Shown: piece after piece, positions 6,885 through 62,349 of the stretch
Layout: every line of letters starts with the position of its first letter
Position numbering within the stretch: position 1 is the first letter of the stretch
IMG/VR virus record: IMGVR_UViG_3300027741_000021
Coordinates: 62,001-126,000 of that record
DNA from: a virus
DNA length: 64,000 nucleotides
Strand: one strand, 5' to 3'
Made by a program: the position numbers and the translations under genes
Notes under the pieces: model-generated
What the model saw: only the letters and a program-made list of their open reading frames with translations
Databases searched by the model: none
Told to the model about the DNA's origin: nothing

Positions 6885-8257
6885 GTGACTGGTCCTTGAT
6901 TCCATGGTATACCAAACTTTTTGTCATCCATGGCCTGATTGATCAGCCTACTCACCACATGATCAAAGGCATCTAGATATCCTACATCAGGAGGCATCGG
7001 TCTTATTGTTTTTCCTGATTGTACAAAAGTTTGAACTACCTGTTCTACGCTACTGTTATTGATGCTTCCAATAATATATCGTTCAGCGCCTGGTCGATCT
7101 AAAAATCCACTTTCGTGGTACACATAAACATCGCCCTTGACATCAACTGCCACAGCCACTTGCGGAAAACTGTATGGCACCATTTCCTTCCAGGAGATCA
7201 TTTTCAATGCACCAGAATTTTTTCCGTGTACCAGAGACTCTAATGCGTAACCAAAATCCCAATGTGTAGTAGGCCATTTGTTTTGTTTAAAATCTTTGAT
7301 CTTGTCAAATATATCAACAAGTTGTGCTCTCTCCTCGTCACTGACTATGCGAACATTTTGACTAAAATCTTCTCTCAAAGTGACAAAGTCAATAGGACGA
7401 GTGGTGTGACTGTTGATATGATCAATGATATCAACCAGCTTTAATACATCTTTAGAAGATCCAGGAAGGATAATCCAATTTACCCCCACACGCACATCAG
7501 TGGTTGAGTTGATATAGTCAATGATGTTTTGTATGATACAATCAAAACTTTCAGAATGCCGGGTTACTTTGAAAGCACTATCTGTATCCACACCGTATAG
7601 GCTGAATCGAACTGCATACAGATCTTTCATACCTGGGTTCTTCTCTACATACTTTGCGGTCATCATGTAACCATTGGTATAGAGTTGCATCTTGTAACCA
7701 CGCTGTTTGCCATAGGTAATGATATTACCTAGATAGCGATTGGTCAATGGCTCAAGTCCACCGCTGATTCTAAATCTATCATCCCAGAATTGATCAGTCT
7801 TGGAGTCTTGATCAATGATCTGTTTGAATACATCAAACCCATGTTGTTCAAACTTCCGATCATATTTGGCAACAGGATTCCGCCCACAAAAATTGCAATA
7901 GAACATGCAACTCATGCCAGTGTATAACCCAATGCGATTTGGATACATGTAGTTATGATCTATAGCAGCATGCAACGAACCGTTGTTGAGTAATGGTTGG
8001 ATGGTATTAGTCCAATACTTGGTGCCCTCACCACGGAGTAAGATATGATTTTGTGCATTGGCATCTTGCCGTAACATTTGTGATAATTCACGCAATTGAT
8101 CTGCAGAAATGTGTAGTGTGCCCGCTATTTTTCTTTGAGTCACAAAAGGATCATCGGCTAACATTTTACATATCTGTATGGACACAGAGTCCAAGTGAGA
8201 AATATCAGCAGCCTGATCAACAGCAACGGAACTATGGGTATAACCTAATCTTGTCAT
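6875..8257 (-). CDS. DesII-like radical SAM enzyme (deoxyaminosugar ammonia-lyase family)
   Basis: 460 residues. The layout and many motifs match DesII, which removes ammonia from TDP-4-amino-4,6-dideoxyglucose: GLYTGMSCMFYCNFCGR (iron-sulfur CxxxCxxC), SGGLEPLTN, YTNGYMM, DFVTLREDFS, DFGYALESL and PQVAVAVDVKGDVYVYHESGF. A helical N-terminal region precedes the radical SAM barrel, as in DesII. It lies between two DegT aminotransferases, which fits an amino- then deoxy-sugar route. The substrate is inferred; a dehydrogenation or another amino sugar is possible. Confidence 0.85.
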   Translation of the reverse strand: MTRLGYTHSSVAVDQAADISHLDSVSIQICKMLADDPFVTQRKIAGTLHISADQLRELSQMLRQDANAQNHILLRGEGTKYWTNTIQPLLNNGSLHAAIDHNYMYPNRIGLYTGMSCMFYCNFCGRNPVAKYDRKFEQHGFDVFKQIIDQDSKTDQFWDDRFRISGGLEPLTNRYLGNIITYGKQRGYKMQLYTNGYMMTAKYVEKNPGMKDLYAVRFSLYGVDTDSAFKVTRHSESFDCIIQNIIDYINSTTDVRVGVNWIILPGSSKDVLKLVDIIDHINSHTTRPIDFVTLREDFSQNVRIVSDEERAQLVDIFDKIKDFKQNKWPTTHWDFGYALESLVHGKNSGALKMISWKEMVPYSFPQVAVAVDVKGDVYVYHESGFLDRPGAERYIIGSINNSSVEQVVQTFVQSGKTIRPMPPDVGYLDAFDHVVSRLINQAMDDKKFGIPWNQGPVTCR

Positions 8258-8259
8258 AT

Positions 8260-9351
8260 TTAAACAGCAGCTAACACCGAATTGATAATGTAGTCGGCTT
8301 CCAGATCAGTGAGTTCAGGATAGAACGGCAATGAGATGCAGCGTCGTGCTAGACTTGAGCTCACACTCAACAGGTTGGGTCCTTTACAATTCTGATACGC
8401 ATCTAGCTCATGTAGCGGATTCTTGTAGTGTATCTTGGTTTCAATTTGTCCAGCAGCAAGTCGTTGTTGCAATTCAACCTGGTTGTCAACTTCAATCACA
8501 AACTTCTGTAACGCATGACCTCTAAAGTTGGTACTATCAATCAAACATCGGATAGATTTTTCTTCTAGCCGTACCATCCAGTATCTTGCTATCTGACTTC
8601 GACGCAGTTGCCAAACATCTAGATGTTGAGTCTTGACCATCATTTGCGCACAGTCAATTTCACTCATGCGACTGTTTGTACCTACAGTAGTATGCCCGCC
8701 AGCTTTGCCGTTGTTGCACCAATTGCGAGCATATTCAGCTAGATACAAATCAGAAGTGATTACAGCACCACCATTGCCATAGTTGGGTAGATTTTTAGTA
8801 GGATCAAAGCTGATAGCAGTGGAGTTAGCTTGCCGGTGACAATTATCCGACAGCCAATGTTGCGCACCATCTTCAATCAAACAATCAGTCATGGTATAAC
8901 ATCGCGATAATGCATTTAATGCAGCACCGTATAGGCCCACAACACAGATAGCATCATAGCTGCGGGTGTGATCATCCTGGATCACGGCAGGATCCATACA
9001 TCCATATTTGTCAGTATCCACGATCTCCACTTGCCAGCCAGCCATAATGAATGCATTGGCTGTGGCAGGGTATGTCATAGCCGGGACCAAAACTGTGGGA
9101 GTCTTGCCTGCATCACGAATGTTATCAAAACAGTAGGCGGCAATGATCTCTAGAGCCTGTGTGCCCGAGTGACATGTTACCGCATGCAAATTATGATTCT
9201 TTTTAGACAACCATGATTCAAACTCAGCGGTGTTGTTACCATCCATGAGATTACCAGAACGCAACACTATGTCAGTTGCATCCAGGATCTCCTCACGGAG
9301 ATTGTTATACTGTCTTGGGAGCCCAGTAAATGCTATTTTTAAACCAGCCAT
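8260..9351 (-). CDS. DegT/DnrJ-type PLP aminotransferase, second copy
   Basis: Second sugar aminotransferase-like gene. CHSGTQALE (phosphate loop), IEDGAQHW (cofactor Asp) and FDPTKNLPNYGNGGA (Schiff-base Lys) are visible. It is well diverged from the gene at 5793, so the two probably act on different sugars. The start chosen is ATG-GCT-GGT; an ATG nine codons upstream is possible, though its ribosome site is poor. The start overlaps the epimerase gene, as expected in one operon. Confidence 0.88.
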   Translation of the reverse strand: MAGLKIAFTGLPRQYNNLREEILDATDIVLRSGNLMDGNNTAEFESWLSKKNHNLHAVTCHSGTQALEIIAAYCFDNIRDAGKTPTVLVPAMTYPATANAFIMAGWQVEIVDTDKYGCMDPAVIQDDHTRSYDAICVVGLYGAALNALSRCYTMTDCLIEDGAQHWLSDNCHRQANSTAISFDPTKNLPNYGNGGAVITSDLYLAEYARNWCNNGKAGGHTTVGTNSRMSEIDCAQMMVKTQHLDVWQLRRSQIARYWMVRLEEKSIRCLIDSTNFRGHALQKFVIEVDNQVELQQRLAAGQIETKIHYKNPLHELDAYQNCKGPNLLSVSSSLARRCISLPFYPELTDLEADYIINSVLAAV

Positions 9352-10282
9352 AGTAGTTTTTAAATCCTTCTTCAACATCAACCTGTGGGTTGTAACCTAA
9401 AACTTGTTTGGCACGATCAATATTCAATGCACCACGTGATGGAAAGTCTGCATCTCGATCGCGTAGTTCAATTGAGCCTTTGCCTACAATCTCAATGATC
9501 ATTCTAGCAGCCTGTAACAAGCTCACGCTGTGGCTTTTTGTGATATTGAATGTTTGATTGGCAGCAGCAGGCACAAGTGCAGCAGCCACCACACCATCAG
9601 CGGCATCATCTACATAAGTGAAGTCTAGTGTTTCGCTTGATCCGTTAACTCGGAGCACTCCGCCGCGCATTGCTGTGAGCATGAATTTTGAGACCACGCG
9701 GTCTTCCACGTCCAAGGGGCCGTATACAGCACTAGGCCTAAGTATAACACAATCAAAACATCCCCTACGAGTATAGTCTTTAACAAGGTCTTCTCCTGCA
9801 AGTTTCATAATTCCATATTGTCCCTGTGGCCCGCACACAGCATCCTCAGTTACATCATCCACAAAGTCTCCGTACACCATTGAGCTAGAGATGTAAACAA
9901 CTCGCTTCACATGGTGTTGTTTGGCACCCTCGAGCACATTGATCAATCCTTCCATCATGACACTAGCACCCCATGCAGGGTTAGCATTCACAACTTTCTG
10001 TCGAGGAAATGACGCCATGTGTATCACTACATCGGGCTGCTCTATTTCAAATATGTCGTTGATAGATTCTCTATCACAGATATCTCGAGTGTACATGTGT
10101 GAAGGTGATTGATTTATTTTCTTCAGTCTTTCTCTTATCAAGTAGTCAAGTTCTGATTGTGGGATCATTCCGTATGTGGTCCGGTTATCAACTATGGATA
10201 CTGTGTGTGATTGATCTTGTAGTCTCTTGACTACATTGTGTCCAATGAGTCCAAGTCCACCAGTGACTAATATTTTCTTCAT
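9305..10282 (-). CDS. NAD-dependent nucleotide-sugar epimerase/dehydratase
   Basis: 325-residue extended short-chain dehydrogenase. N-terminal Rossmann motif TGGLGLIG at residues 7-14, then ISSSMVYGD and YGIMK, giving the Ser and YxxxK catalytic residues; the RPSAVYGP strand follows. Likely acts on a nucleotide sugar made in this cluster. It overlaps both neighbours by a few bases to 47 bp. Confidence 0.92.
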   Translation of the reverse strand: MKKILVTGGLGLIGHNVVKRLQDQSHTVSIVDNRTTYGMIPQSELDYLIRERLKKINQSPSHMYTRDICDRESINDIFEIEQPDVVIHMASFPRQKVVNANPAWGASVMMEGLINVLEGAKQHHVKRVVYISSSMVYGDFVDDVTEDAVCGPQGQYGIMKLAGEDLVKDYTRRGCFDCVILRPSAVYGPLDVEDRVVSKFMLTAMRGGVLRVNGSSETLDFTYVDDAADGVVAAALVPAAANQTFNITKSHSVSLLQAARMIIEIVGKGSIELRDRDADFPSRGALNIDRAKQVLGYNPQVDVEEGFKNYYGWFKNSIYWAPKTV

Positions 10283-20364: not shown

Positions 20365-20598
20365 TCAGTATTTCCTGTGATGGCTTTTGCTCACAATATC
20401 TTGCGGTTTGTACAGCCAACTGCGATCCACGTGACCCTGCTCAATTTCGCGCAGGGCAGTGACTGCATGACTGGATACTTTGGTCACTTTGGGTCGGTCT
20501 CCACGTGCTAGTTCTCGCGCTCGACGTGCTGCGATCAGTACCAATTCGTAACGATTGCCGATCATTTCTGCTGCAAGTTGACTGGTAATTCGTGCCAT
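20365..20598 (-). CDS. rpoZ: RNA polymerase omega subunit homologue
   Basis: 77 residues from ATG at 20598 (GGAGAAC ribosome site; a start four codons upstream is less likely). It begins [20 protein letters not shown] and continues [15 protein letters not shown] and [12 protein letters not shown], the highly conserved omega core, including MAR, GNR, AARRAR and ALREIE. Omega binds the beta-prime subunit, helps RNA polymerase assembly and forms part of the ppGpp site in proteobacteria. The C-terminal tail differs from host omegas. A phage copy is unusual. Own promoter at 20627-20655. Confidence 0.93.
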
Positions 20599-20902: not shown

Positions 20903-20931
20903 AGTATATAGTGATCAAAAATAACAGTCAA
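20903..20931 (-). promoter_or_regulatory. Sigma-70-like promoter
   Basis: -35 TTGACT, 17 bp, -10 TATACT. Serves 20657-20899 and overlaps the tail of the tmRNA terminator. Confidence 0.7.
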
Positions 20932-20957
20932 AAGAAAGCCCGCCAAAGCGGGCTTCT
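20931..20957 (-). terminator. Terminator of the tmRNA gene
   Basis: GC-rich 8-bp stem AAGCCCGC / GCGGGCTT, TTTG loop, tail TCTTTT on the minus strand. Located about 40 nt beyond the tag stop codon. Confidence 0.88.
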
Positions 20958-21174
20958 GTTATTTTCTGTTACGAGGTATAACTACCCTAAGCTGAGTTTA
21001 GGCAGCTAAGGCAAAAAGTTCGTCATTTGCATTTACGTTTTTTGTGTCTCCAACTGTGCTCCGTCTTTCTATGCTATGTGCATAGCGACCTAAGTTACCA
21101 CAATCCTAACGGCTTCTACATTGCCGGACAGTCCATTTCCGTACTCTTGACTCAATCGATCCTGTGTCATCCCC
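20958..21174 (-). ncRNA. ssrA: Coding piece of a circularly permuted (two-piece) tmRNA
   Basis: Begins GGGGATGACACAGGATCG, a typical tmRNA 5' end, and pairs with CATCTCC of the acceptor piece (21241-21247). The tag frame lies at about 20998-21036: the readable end is ANDELFALAA before TAA, close to proteobacterial tags (ANDENYALAA in E. coli). There is no T-arm or CCA downstream before the terminator; both lie upstream of the GGGG end instead, so the gene is permuted. 3' end of the piece not mapped. With SmpB it would rescue stalled ribosomes and tag proteins. Confidence 0.88.
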
Positions 21175-21236
21175 ATCAGAAACAGTCTTGTATATGAATG
21201 CACTATGGACTTATAACATATGACCCAAACTGCTTA
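21175..21236 (-). ncRNA. Intervening segment of the permuted tmRNA
   Basis: About 62 nt between the CCA end and the GGGG end. In known permuted tmRNAs this joining loop is cut out by RNase processing; inferred here by position. Confidence 0.7.
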
Positions 21237-21296
21237 TGGTGGAGATGTCGGGCACTGCCCCCGAGTCTTGAATCCTTTTCTGTCTACTTCATACCA
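21237..21296 (-). ncRNA. ssrA: Acceptor piece of the permuted tmRNA
   Basis: Ends CATCTCC-A-CCA (21247 to 21237). Just before it is a T-arm: stem TCGGG/CCCGA with loop GGCAGTG, the unusual T-loop I associate with alphaproteobacterial permuted tmRNAs. CATCTCC pairs with GGGGATG (one G-U). The 5' limit is approximate, set by the promoter start site. Confidence 0.85.
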
Positions 21297-21307
21297 TCAT
21301 ACGTTAC

Positions 21308-21336
21308 ATTGTAACAGAGTATTTATAATCTGTCAA
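21308..21336 (-). promoter_or_regulatory. tmRNA promoter
   Basis: -35 TTGACA, 17 bp, -10 TACAAT. Predicted start near 21301, directly before the acceptor piece. Confidence 0.85.
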
Positions 21337-21339
21337 CAA

Positions 21340-21951
21340 TCAAGATGTCAACATTTCATTGATATACGCATAGTGAGGTATGCGCTCAATCACCGCAACC
21401 ATTTCCAAACATCCGGTGCTGTGTGTAAATGCCGATAGTGAATAATCAAACCCAGCATCATTGTCGTACATTTCTCGCAAGCGCCATTGTCCAAATGGCA
21501 GTGCTCTTTCAATTTCCAACAACAAGGTGCTGGGCATGTAAAACTTCAAATGCTCGCCGCTGTATCTGCTGGGCATGATCATTTTCTTTTCGTACAATTG
21601 CTGATGAGGTACTACCACAACTAAAAATCCACCCACTCGCAGCACACGAAACCAGTCGGCCAACGCTGCTGCTGGATTGGGCAAGTGTTCTAGGCAATGA
21701 CTGGAATACACAGTGTCTTGACTGGCATCTGGAAAAGGCAAATGTACACCATCATATCCTGGATAATGTTGATCAATACCAATGGCATTGTCGGTGATGG
21801 GCAATGCACCGTTGCCGCCTGCATATCCAATTTCAATAGTGTTATCACCGCTGAAATAGCGTTGCATGAAACCTGATTCAATCAGAGAACGATAGCTTTT
21901 ACTGGTTTCGGACCCCACGTGTCGATTAGGATCAAATGTTTTTGTTTGCAT
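21340..21951 (-). CDS. SAM-dependent methyltransferase (Methyltransf_11-like)
   Basis: 203 residues. Motif I is IEIGYAGGNGALP around residue 40; SSHCLEHLPNP and ADWFRVLRVGGFLVVVVP match post-motif I and motifs of class I methyltransferases. Probably acts on a sugar or lipid in the surface-glycan set; substrate unknown. The stop lies just upstream of the tmRNA promoter. Confidence 0.85.
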   Translation of the reverse strand: MQTKTFDPNRHVGSETSKSYRSLIESGFMQRYFSGDNTIEIGYAGGNGALPITDNAIGIDQHYPGYDGVHLPFPDASQDTVYSSHCLEHLPNPAAALADWFRVLRVGGFLVVVVPHQQLYEKKMIMPSRYSGEHLKFYMPSTLLLEIERALPFGQWRLREMYDNDAGFDYSLSAFTHSTGCLEMVAVIERIPHYAYINEMLTS

Positions 21952-54290: not shown

Positions 54291-55313
54291 TTATTTTTCT
54301 CCCAGCAGATACCGGTTAGAGATAGCCTTGAAAGTCATTCCACCACCCACTTGCTTGAACACAATACCTTCACGTTCTGGTCCAGTGATATCACCCATGA
54401 CAGATTTGCCTTCGGCAAACTGTAGAATTTCTTCAACAGCGCCTGTGCCAAGATTCCTGTCAGTGTGCAGCACAGGAACATGCAGCAGTCCCATCTTCTC
54501 AACAAGAGCTCGACGGAATGCAGGAGAGATGTACCCGCCGCCAAACACGTCGTACACATCAAACACACAAAACTCTGGCTGGGTCAACCGGTAGATATTG
54601 CCTTGAATGCCGGGGCCGATCAGTTCACCTTGGATAGCAACATCCTTGTCACCAAACAGATTGCGGATCTTGTCTTCGATGTTGTCACGACGTGCAACAG
54701 ACCAGAATGTGTTACCTTCGGTTTCCTTAAGGTCCAGGTTGCGAGAGCAAACACCAAACTCACCATCGATCAAGTACACAGTCATTGAAGAGCCTTCCAG
54801 CTTTTCAGTAACTTCAAACTCAGCGCCTGTTTCAGCGGCAGCACGGATTTCCGCAACAAGATTCTGAGCACGTTCCTGGTCAGTCTTGGGAATCTCAGAA
54901 GGGAAGTTACCCTTGGCCAGGCCAGCCAACTGTGCATTCATAGGCATTTCCCACTTCACAATGCCCAGCAGTTCAGACACATCTTCACCTTCAGTGAAAG
55001 AATTTGTTTGTGGAATAACATCATCAAGATTCAGCAGCAGACCTTGGCTCAGTTGGCCTCGTAGCTTTACAGTACGCAGACGTTCACCGCGGATGCCTTC
55101 AAACTCGCGAGGCTCCTTGCCCTTGCTTAGGAAAGCAGCAATCTCAGTGGGAATCCAAGAGTCAATCTCGCAATACACTGCACGGTCGCCCGTCTTGAAC
55201 TCGCCCTTCTTTACCACTACCTTCCATCCACCAATGGTAGCGCACTCAATTGCATCTGCACCCTCAATGGGATTCAGCGCATCAATCACACGGATAGTTG
55301 CCATCTTACGCAT
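54291..55313 (-). CDS. RNA ligase with N-terminal OB-like domain (DraRnl/Rnl5-like)
   Basis: 340 residues. The first ~155 residues look like an OB-fold domain (TIRVIDALNPIEGADAIE). The ligase core has FEVTEKLEGSSMTVYL (motif I, K-x-E-G), GVCSRNLDL (III-like), DVAIQGELIG, PEREGIVFK (IV) and MTFKAISNRYLL (V). Differs from Rnl1 at 41875. Seals RNA nicks; may repair cut tRNA with the kinase at 51775. Confidence 0.85.
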   Translation of the reverse strand: MRKMATIRVIDALNPIEGADAIECATIGGWKVVVKKGEFKTGDRAVYCEIDSWIPTEIAAFLSKGKEPREFEGIRGERLRTVKLRGQLSQGLLLNLDDVIPQTNSFTEGEDVSELLGIVKWEMPMNAQLAGLAKGNFPSEIPKTDQERAQNLVAEIRAAAETGAEFEVTEKLEGSSMTVYLIDGEFGVCSRNLDLKETEGNTFWSVARRDNIEDKIRNLFGDKDVAIQGELIGPGIQGNIYRLTQPEFCVFDVYDVFGGGYISPAFRRALVEKMGLLHVPVLHTDRNLGTGAVEEILQFAEGKSVMGDITGPEREGIVFKQVGGGMTFKAISNRYLLGEK

Positions 55314-61939: not shown

Positions 61940-62349
61940 GATACTTCAGTGCGGCCGTCACCAATGTCTGTGCTACGTACCCACACGCCGCTCTTGCTGA
62001 TGGCTTCTTCTTGTTCCCAGGTTTCCATTACCACATGTCGGCATACATTTTGGAACCAACGGTCCACAATCTCTGCGTCAGTGTCGTCCTTCTTGATCAT
62101 GTATCCAGCTTTGACCAGACGTGCCACGAAGATCTCATTCCAGTCCAATTCAAATGCACCTTGATGCAGGTTGTCTAGATCCACATCCATACTGAGAATG
62201 TTCACGTAAGGCAAGTTATTTTCAGTGGCCTGTTGTTTGGCCGACTTGGGTTCTTCTTTAGGTGGCCGAACTCGGGGCTCTTTGGGCTCGGGCAATTTGG
62301 GTTCTACAACGGGTGCGATTTTCTTTCGAAACATATCAAAAAATGCCAT
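61936..62349 (-). CDS. Phage protein with proline/lysine-rich start
   Basis: 137 residues. Residues 8-40 are Pro/Lys/Glu-rich (VVEPKLPEPKEPRVRPPKEE), then a helical part (FQNVCRHVVMETWEQ). Unknown. Confidence 0.68.
   Translation of the reverse strand: MAFFDMFRKKIAPVVEPKLPEPKEPRVRPPKEEPKSAKQQATENNLPYVNILSMDVDLDNLHQGAFELDWNEIFVARLVKAGYMIKKDDTDAEIVDRWFQNVCRHVVMETWEQEEAISKSGVWVRSTDIGDGRTEVS

Follow-up and report, generated by a model that had tools for sequence, protein, structure and literature searches.

Bacterial tmRNA frees stuck ribosomes and tags unfinished proteins for destruction, and a phage host already has its own tmRNA, which counts against an obvious benefit of a phage copy. The alpha, beta and cyano two-piece tmRNAs are merged in the Rfam family RF04321 (PMC11915505), and the two-piece form is described as functional in Caulobacter (Keiler 2000, as cited in PMC9004378). 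Phages also carry it: 53 of 133 distinct phage tmRNAs are two-piece, and 50 of these 53 are aquatic (PMC9004378). A related phage, Sinorhizobium phage AP-J-162, is reported to have one tmRNA together with six Clp ORFs and DnaJ (PMC11242549). The gene described here is a new example of a kind already known, and the first-pass annotation of this DNA overstated the case in calling a complete permuted version unusual for a phage, given these counts and how common such genes are in IMG/VR.

Identification of the tmRNA gene

The DNA analysed (the window, 64,000 nucleotides) spans positions 62001–126000 of a 191,975-bp IMG/VR virus record, which belongs to a tailed phage encoding a portal protein, a T4-like DNA polymerase and an RNA ligase. 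A complete circularly permuted tmRNA gene was located by Rfam model search and from the sequence itself at window positions 20930–21336 on the minus strand. The RF04321 (tmRNA_permuted) model matches the minus strand end to end from 21298 to 20998 with 100.7 bits, twice the cut-off of 47, and an E-value of 1.9e-18, and the parts follow the order of the family, with the 3' acceptor half encoded upstream of the 5' half. The first-pass annotation had proposed such a gene here without giving its strand, and the elements it named are all present: the T-arm loop GGCAGUG, the CATCTCC-A-CCA end, the 5' end GGGGATGACACAGG, seven of seven acceptor pairs, the ANDELFALAA-stop frame, and a promoter and terminator belonging to the unit. 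Judged from its sequence, this is a complete phage-borne gene that probably works. Its parts, listed in the order of the minus strand, are as follows.

21308–21336, minus: sigma-70-type promoter TTGACA-17-TACAAT with TG before the second hexamer (consensus match 11/12)
21248–21298, minus: acceptor piece, with the 5' strand of the long helix and then the T-arm (RF04321 positions 1–52)
21248–21264, minus: T-arm, stem UCGGG/CCCGA closing loop GGCAGUG
21237–21247, minus: acceptor stem 3' strand CATCTCC, discriminator A and encoded CCA (sequence; pairs 7/7 with 21168–21174)
21241–21247, minus: the CATCTCC strand of the acceptor stem
21175–21236, minus: intervening segment of 62 nt between the mature pieces, predicted to be excised (fold)
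21168–21174, minus: 5' end of the coding piece, GGGGATG, the 5' strand of the acceptor stem, with G3-U70 (RF04321 and pairing)
21110–21126, minus: first stem of PK1, CGGC/GCCG (RF04321 stem)
21052–21105, minus: extra hairpin GAUUGUG/CACAGUU between PK1 and the resume codon (RNAalifold)
20998–21030, minus: resume codon GCA and tag frame ANDELFALAA-stop, 10 codons (sequence; gapless against the beta_tmRNA consensus)
20986–21011, minus: hairpin CCUUAGCUG/CAGCUUAGG with the tag stop codon in its loop (fold and sequence)
20958–20982, minus: terminal helix GUUAU/AUAAC around the conserved loop ACCUCGUAACAGAA (comparison with phage relatives)
20930–20956, minus: intrinsic terminator with a 9-pair stem, 4-nt loop and T-rich tail

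The promoter is the best of five promoter-like sites in 1.1 kb, where shuffled sequences give 2.7. By consensus match only, the same strict pattern stands at eight intergenic sites of the 192-kb record, and several of these precede tRNA arrays. A T4-like late promoter TATAAATA before the gene was considered and set aside; it has six copies in the 192-kb record, only three of them intergenic, and is so scarce that there is no sign of late-promoter use. The 62-nt intervening segment folds as an extension of the acceptor stem, which carries the alanine identity pair G3-U70, and CCA is encoded in the DNA. The first stem of PK1 is invariant in 12 relatives, so its pairing is neither supported nor refuted by them, and a second PK1 stem was not identified in the window gene. 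The tag is encoded by GCA AAT GAC GAA CTT TTT GCC TTA GCT GCC TAA, that is, by a resume codon of the GCN type followed by a short tag with the usual (L/V)AA-stop ending. An H-type pseudoknot near the 3' end (GGUA/UACC with GUUA/UAAC) was also considered; its cells are paired in 64–75% of cases in the relatives, and the terminal helix was preferred.

ARAGORN called no tmRNA at 20930–21336, so automatic phage annotation is probably blind to the gene as well. That silence is what one would see if the Rfam hit were a chance or false covariance match to some other RNA or coding sequence, a reading that we consider scarcely credible against an E-value of this size over the full length of the model. 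The tag and the acceptor pairing are independent observations, as are the relatives described below, and the ORF entering the region (21220–21438, plus strand) is short and lies on the opposite strand. The RNA also folds more stably than shuffled sequences (z -2.2), although this is secondary to the covariance model and the comparisons on which the case for a tmRNA rests.

Relative to RF04321, the window gene has about 56–60 extra nt between PK1 and the tag, containing the extra hairpin, and its tag region is 9 nt shorter than the model. The distance from the 5' end to the resume codon is 144 nt, whereas in the relatives it is mostly 60–109. When this region was aligned with eleven relatives, RNAalifold found a 7-pair hairpin unaided, with 98.8% of cells paired and three pairs altered on both sides; the covariation is modest, amounting to four double-change cells in the twelve sequences. 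The window version has about 40 nt inserted in the loop of this hairpin.

Distribution and conservation among phages

A related T-arm pattern with five two-fold ambiguities occurs in at least 120 stretches of IMG/VR viral contigs. Among 81 matches that were read, including the window, 79 have a downstream strand completing the acceptor stem and 65 have a readable tag, and a separate search with a 5'-end pattern returned 47 contigs. So that the tmRNA itself did not guide the choice, relatives were picked by DNA polymerase alone (79–97% identity) and then searched with RF04321. A permuted tmRNA was present in all eight of the records of at least 76 kb selected in this way, including records of 349, 364 and 343 kb, and the four that gave none are fragments of about 60 kb or less. 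Because the tmRNA-bearing polymerase relatives reach 343–364 kb, the record itself probably represents part of a jumbo genome some 350 kb in size. Ranked by DNA polymerase, Phosso (48.9%) is the nearest isolate, followed by Agrobacterium phage Atu_ph07 (42.7%), which gave no permuted tmRNA in an RF04321 search. Neither the gene nor window 18–24 kb has DNA similarity to isolated phages among 50,697 phage records. The permuted tmRNA is thus no curiosity; it belongs to the regular gene set of a widespread jumbo-phage lineage.

The acceptor stems of these genes vary on both strands and yet pair, as in CGCCTCC/GGGGGCG, CATCTCC/GGGGATG, CAGGTCC/GGGCCTG, ATGGTCC/GGGCCAT and CAGCTCC/GGGGCTG, and G3-U70 is retained in 127 of 127 distinct genes read. 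Only fully paired stems passed the script, and part of one strand was set by the search patterns, so the polymerase-selected records are the fairest test; their stems differ (CAGGTCC/GGGCCTG, ATGGTCC/GGGCCAT), all pair and all keep G3-U70. Of 65 phage genes, 51 have at least five pairs in the terminal helix around the loop ACCUnGnAACAGAA; 29 distinct stem sequences occur there, and the mean is 5.6 pairs against 2.8 with shuffled flanks. Tags end in AA in 112 of 119 genes read. In 18 of the 119 the 3' end runs ACC-U and not CCA, so in those genes CCA would have to be added after transcription. Taken at the level of sequence, conservation of the acceptor pairing, the terminal helix and the tag ends would be expected only if the whole RNA, its tag included, is used.

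These data also bear on whether the gene could be a functionless relic of a host ssrA, left by imprecise prophage excision or integration at that site, given that ssrA is a common integration site and that fragments of it are known in prophages (PMC9004378). The window gene, however, is complete with promoter and terminator, it recurs in every large relative, and its stems show compensatory changes; no tyrosine integrase was found in the record, five relatives or Phosso, and no close bacterial match in 385 alphaproteobacterial genomes. A relic is already disfavoured by the conservation and appears very improbable.

Some tags depart from the usual form. Two different phage tmRNAs, in contigs L028 and L162, have tags ending LLAANA, that is, LAA plus two further residues, and tags ending LAANA may not be recognised by ClpX or may not be degraded. 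Three members of the polymerase-defined lineage (L298, L291 and L295) have a 29-aa tag ending LAV, for example ANANTGEVTVSGKNVKFSARTAQRQSLAV, which is nearly three times the usual length.

Relationship to alpha and beta types

The first-pass annotation had traced the gene to an alphaproteobacterial source, and the evidence on this point is divided. The alpha_tmRNA model (RF01849) gives 73.2 bits against a cut-off of 50, and the T-loop GGCAGUG is alpha-like, differing from the alpha form GGC(A/G)GUA by the G in last place and from the canonical beta loop UUCGANN altogether. On the other side, the beta_tmRNA model (RF01850) gives 75.6 bits and a better E-value than the alpha model, below its own cut-off of 84. 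The tag is as short as in the beta model, and its region needs no gap against the beta consensus but a 9-nt gap against the merged model; tag strings of betaproteobacteria gave no result in a literature search, so this likeness rests on the Rfam consensus. Within the lineage, L291, with 124 bits and the T-loop UUCGACC, is plainly of beta type; L292, at 91.6, also clears the beta cut-off, and others clear only that of alpha. A BLAST search of the gene against 385 alphaproteobacterial genomes found only about 31 nt shared around the T-arm. The omega subunit encoded next to the tmRNA resembles E. coli-type omega subunits (45.9 bits). An alphaproteobacterial source is therefore supported only in part and does not hold as first worded. 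Among the 385 alphaproteobacterial genomes no close bacterial donor was found, and the sequences would suit a betaproteobacterial host no less well than an alphaproteobacterial one. In type, the genes of this lineage fall in between alpha and beta, a position that is relevant to the question of where two-piece tmRNAs move.

Probable mosaic structure of the gene

The 62-nt intervening segment is identical at 62 of 62 positions in viral contigs L028, L121, L166 and L171, and the tags differ, being ANDELFALAA in the window, ANDDTFLLAANA in L028 and ANASNDEVWALAA in L121. Within the gene, L028 shares 197 nt with the window at 94% identity; the only further stretches that the two have in common are about 70–72% identical, match window 47.9–48.5 kb and adjoin the tmRNA in L028. 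A shared segment that would be discarded after processing, together with different tags, points to mosaicism of the gene, and the simplest reading is a recent swap of gene pieces between phages that placed different tag halves on one acceptor half.

Phage ClpA and neighbouring genes

A 759-aa ClpA-type unfoldase is encoded outside the window, at 167163–169439 of the record on the minus strand. Its best match is TIGR02639 (789 bits, below the NCBIfam equivalog cut-off of 993), and it gives 582.7 bits with E. coli ClpA. The Walker motifs and the pore loops KYR and GYVG are intact, and IGF stands where E. coli ClpA has the ClpP-docking IGL. ClpA is also encoded in the three relatives above 340 kb. 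The record encodes no ClpP, and SmpB is absent from all 21 phage records searched (this record and 20 others). A shortened DnaJ adjoins the ClpA gene (169490–170266, minus strand), the same neighbourhood being seen in Pseudomonas phage PA5oct; in contig L009 the two genes are placed as follows.

7163–9439, minus: ClpA
9490–10266, minus: DnaJ

Other genes were noted as well. A 77-aa RNA polymerase omega subunit (RpoZ) lies 0.4 kb downstream at window 20365–20598 on the minus strand, matches PF01192 (E 2.8e-14) and TIGR00690 (above cut-off), and has no PHROG match. Omega was found in six other phage records searched, with weaker scores in two; among isolated phages none was convincing, the six tblastn hits being very weak and resembling bacterial DNA in phage records. 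A phage omega could alter the ppGpp response of the host polymerase. The window also holds 34 tRNA genes (23510–49234, minus strand, ARAGORN), with some anticodons present twice (Asn gtt, Tyr gta), and an RNA ligase at 54291–55313; the ligase and the large tRNA set would fit a phage that expects damage to translation.

Proposed function

We think it quite likely that this is a working phage gene for a permuted two-piece tmRNA that is loaded by host SmpB and tags proteins for Clp proteolysis. From the gene anatomy, the compensatory pairing, the conservation in the lineage, and the presence of ClpA and absence of SmpB in the phage, we infer the following course of transcription, processing, charging, tagging, degradation and benefit. 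Host RNA polymerase would make a single precursor from the sigma-70-type promoter, RNase P and 3' processing would cut at the tRNA-like ends and so remove the 62-nt intervening segment, and the acceptor and coding pieces would stay joined by base pairs. Host alanyl-tRNA synthetase would charge the RNA by way of G3-U70, and host SmpB, proposed because the phage records have none, would load it onto stalled ribosomes. Translation would then switch to the ANDELFALAA tag, and the tagged protein would pass to Clp proteolysis, where host ClpP would act together with ClpX or ClpA of the host or with the ClpA-type unfoldase of the phage. The use to the phage would probably lie in continued ribosome cycling at a time when broken messages arise from phage replication, mRNA decay or host defences. 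A coupling between the phage tmRNA and phage ClpA is suggested by the conservation of both in the lineage, but there are also phages, PA5oct among them, that have a ClpA and lack a permuted tmRNA.

The same genes could instead serve mainly to compete with or replace the host tmRNA, by titrating SmpB or by redirecting tagging to phage rules, for example through phage ClpA. When expressed in E. coli, the tRNA-like-domain-only tmRNA of phage DS6A does inhibit the tmRNA of the host (PMC11915505, PMC4131195), the present phage has ClpA without SmpB, and the tags of the window, L028 and L121 vary where the rest of the gene is nearly identical. We nevertheless regard this as distinctly unlikely, since the full tag frame and the terminal helix are under selection and, unlike in DS6A, would be superfluous in a pure decoy. 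A working rescue RNA that tags for proteolysis remains the preferred reading. An extension of it, which we offer with considerable doubt, is that the lineage keeps recombining tmRNA modules (an alpha-like acceptor half, an alpha- or beta-like coding half and exchangeable tags) and adds its own ClpA, giving a phage-run rescue-and-degrade pathway that would borrow only SmpB and ClpP from the host, with tags swapped to suit hosts or proteases. What merits follow-up is the mosaic make-up of the gene and its pairing with a phage ClpA, and having both ClpA and tmRNA in one phage makes the question of why phages carry a ribosome-rescue RNA testable.

Comparison with known systems

The window gene shares with RF04321 the T-arm and CCA encoded upstream of the 5' end, the acceptor stem, the T-arm itself, the long helix, the first stem of PK1, the resume region and the tag, and it differs in the 56-nt insertion between PK1 and the tag, which holds the extra hairpin, and in a tag region 9 nt shorter. 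It resembles the betaproteobacterial two-piece tmRNA (RF01850) in tag length and in a 3' half that aligns without large gaps (75.6 bits), whereas it stays below the family cut-off of 84 and has the T-loop GGCAGUG in place of UUCGANN. A tRNA-like-domain-only tmRNA of the DS6A type was ruled out, since the window gene has its entire tag frame as well as the 3' half. The tmRNA of Melnitz and of other aquatic phages (PMC9004378) is likewise permuted and complete, has relatives among alphaproteobacterial genes, follows a sigma-70-type promoter and is carried by a lytic phage. Melnitz, however, has a glutamine riboswitch, of which an Rfam search found none at the window gene, and is pelagimyophage-like, whereas the window phage belongs to a jumbo group related to Phosso and Atu_ph07. 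Sinorhizobium phage Phosso (PV764938), the closest isolate by DNA polymerase at 48.9% identity, carries a permuted tmRNA scoring 113.3 bits with RF04321; it lies at 349596–350198 of that record, in a stretch without any annotated feature. The Phosso gene differs from the window gene in being clearly of alpha type (108 bits to RF01849), in its tag ANDNVSTKVALAA and in an intervening segment of about 410 nt.
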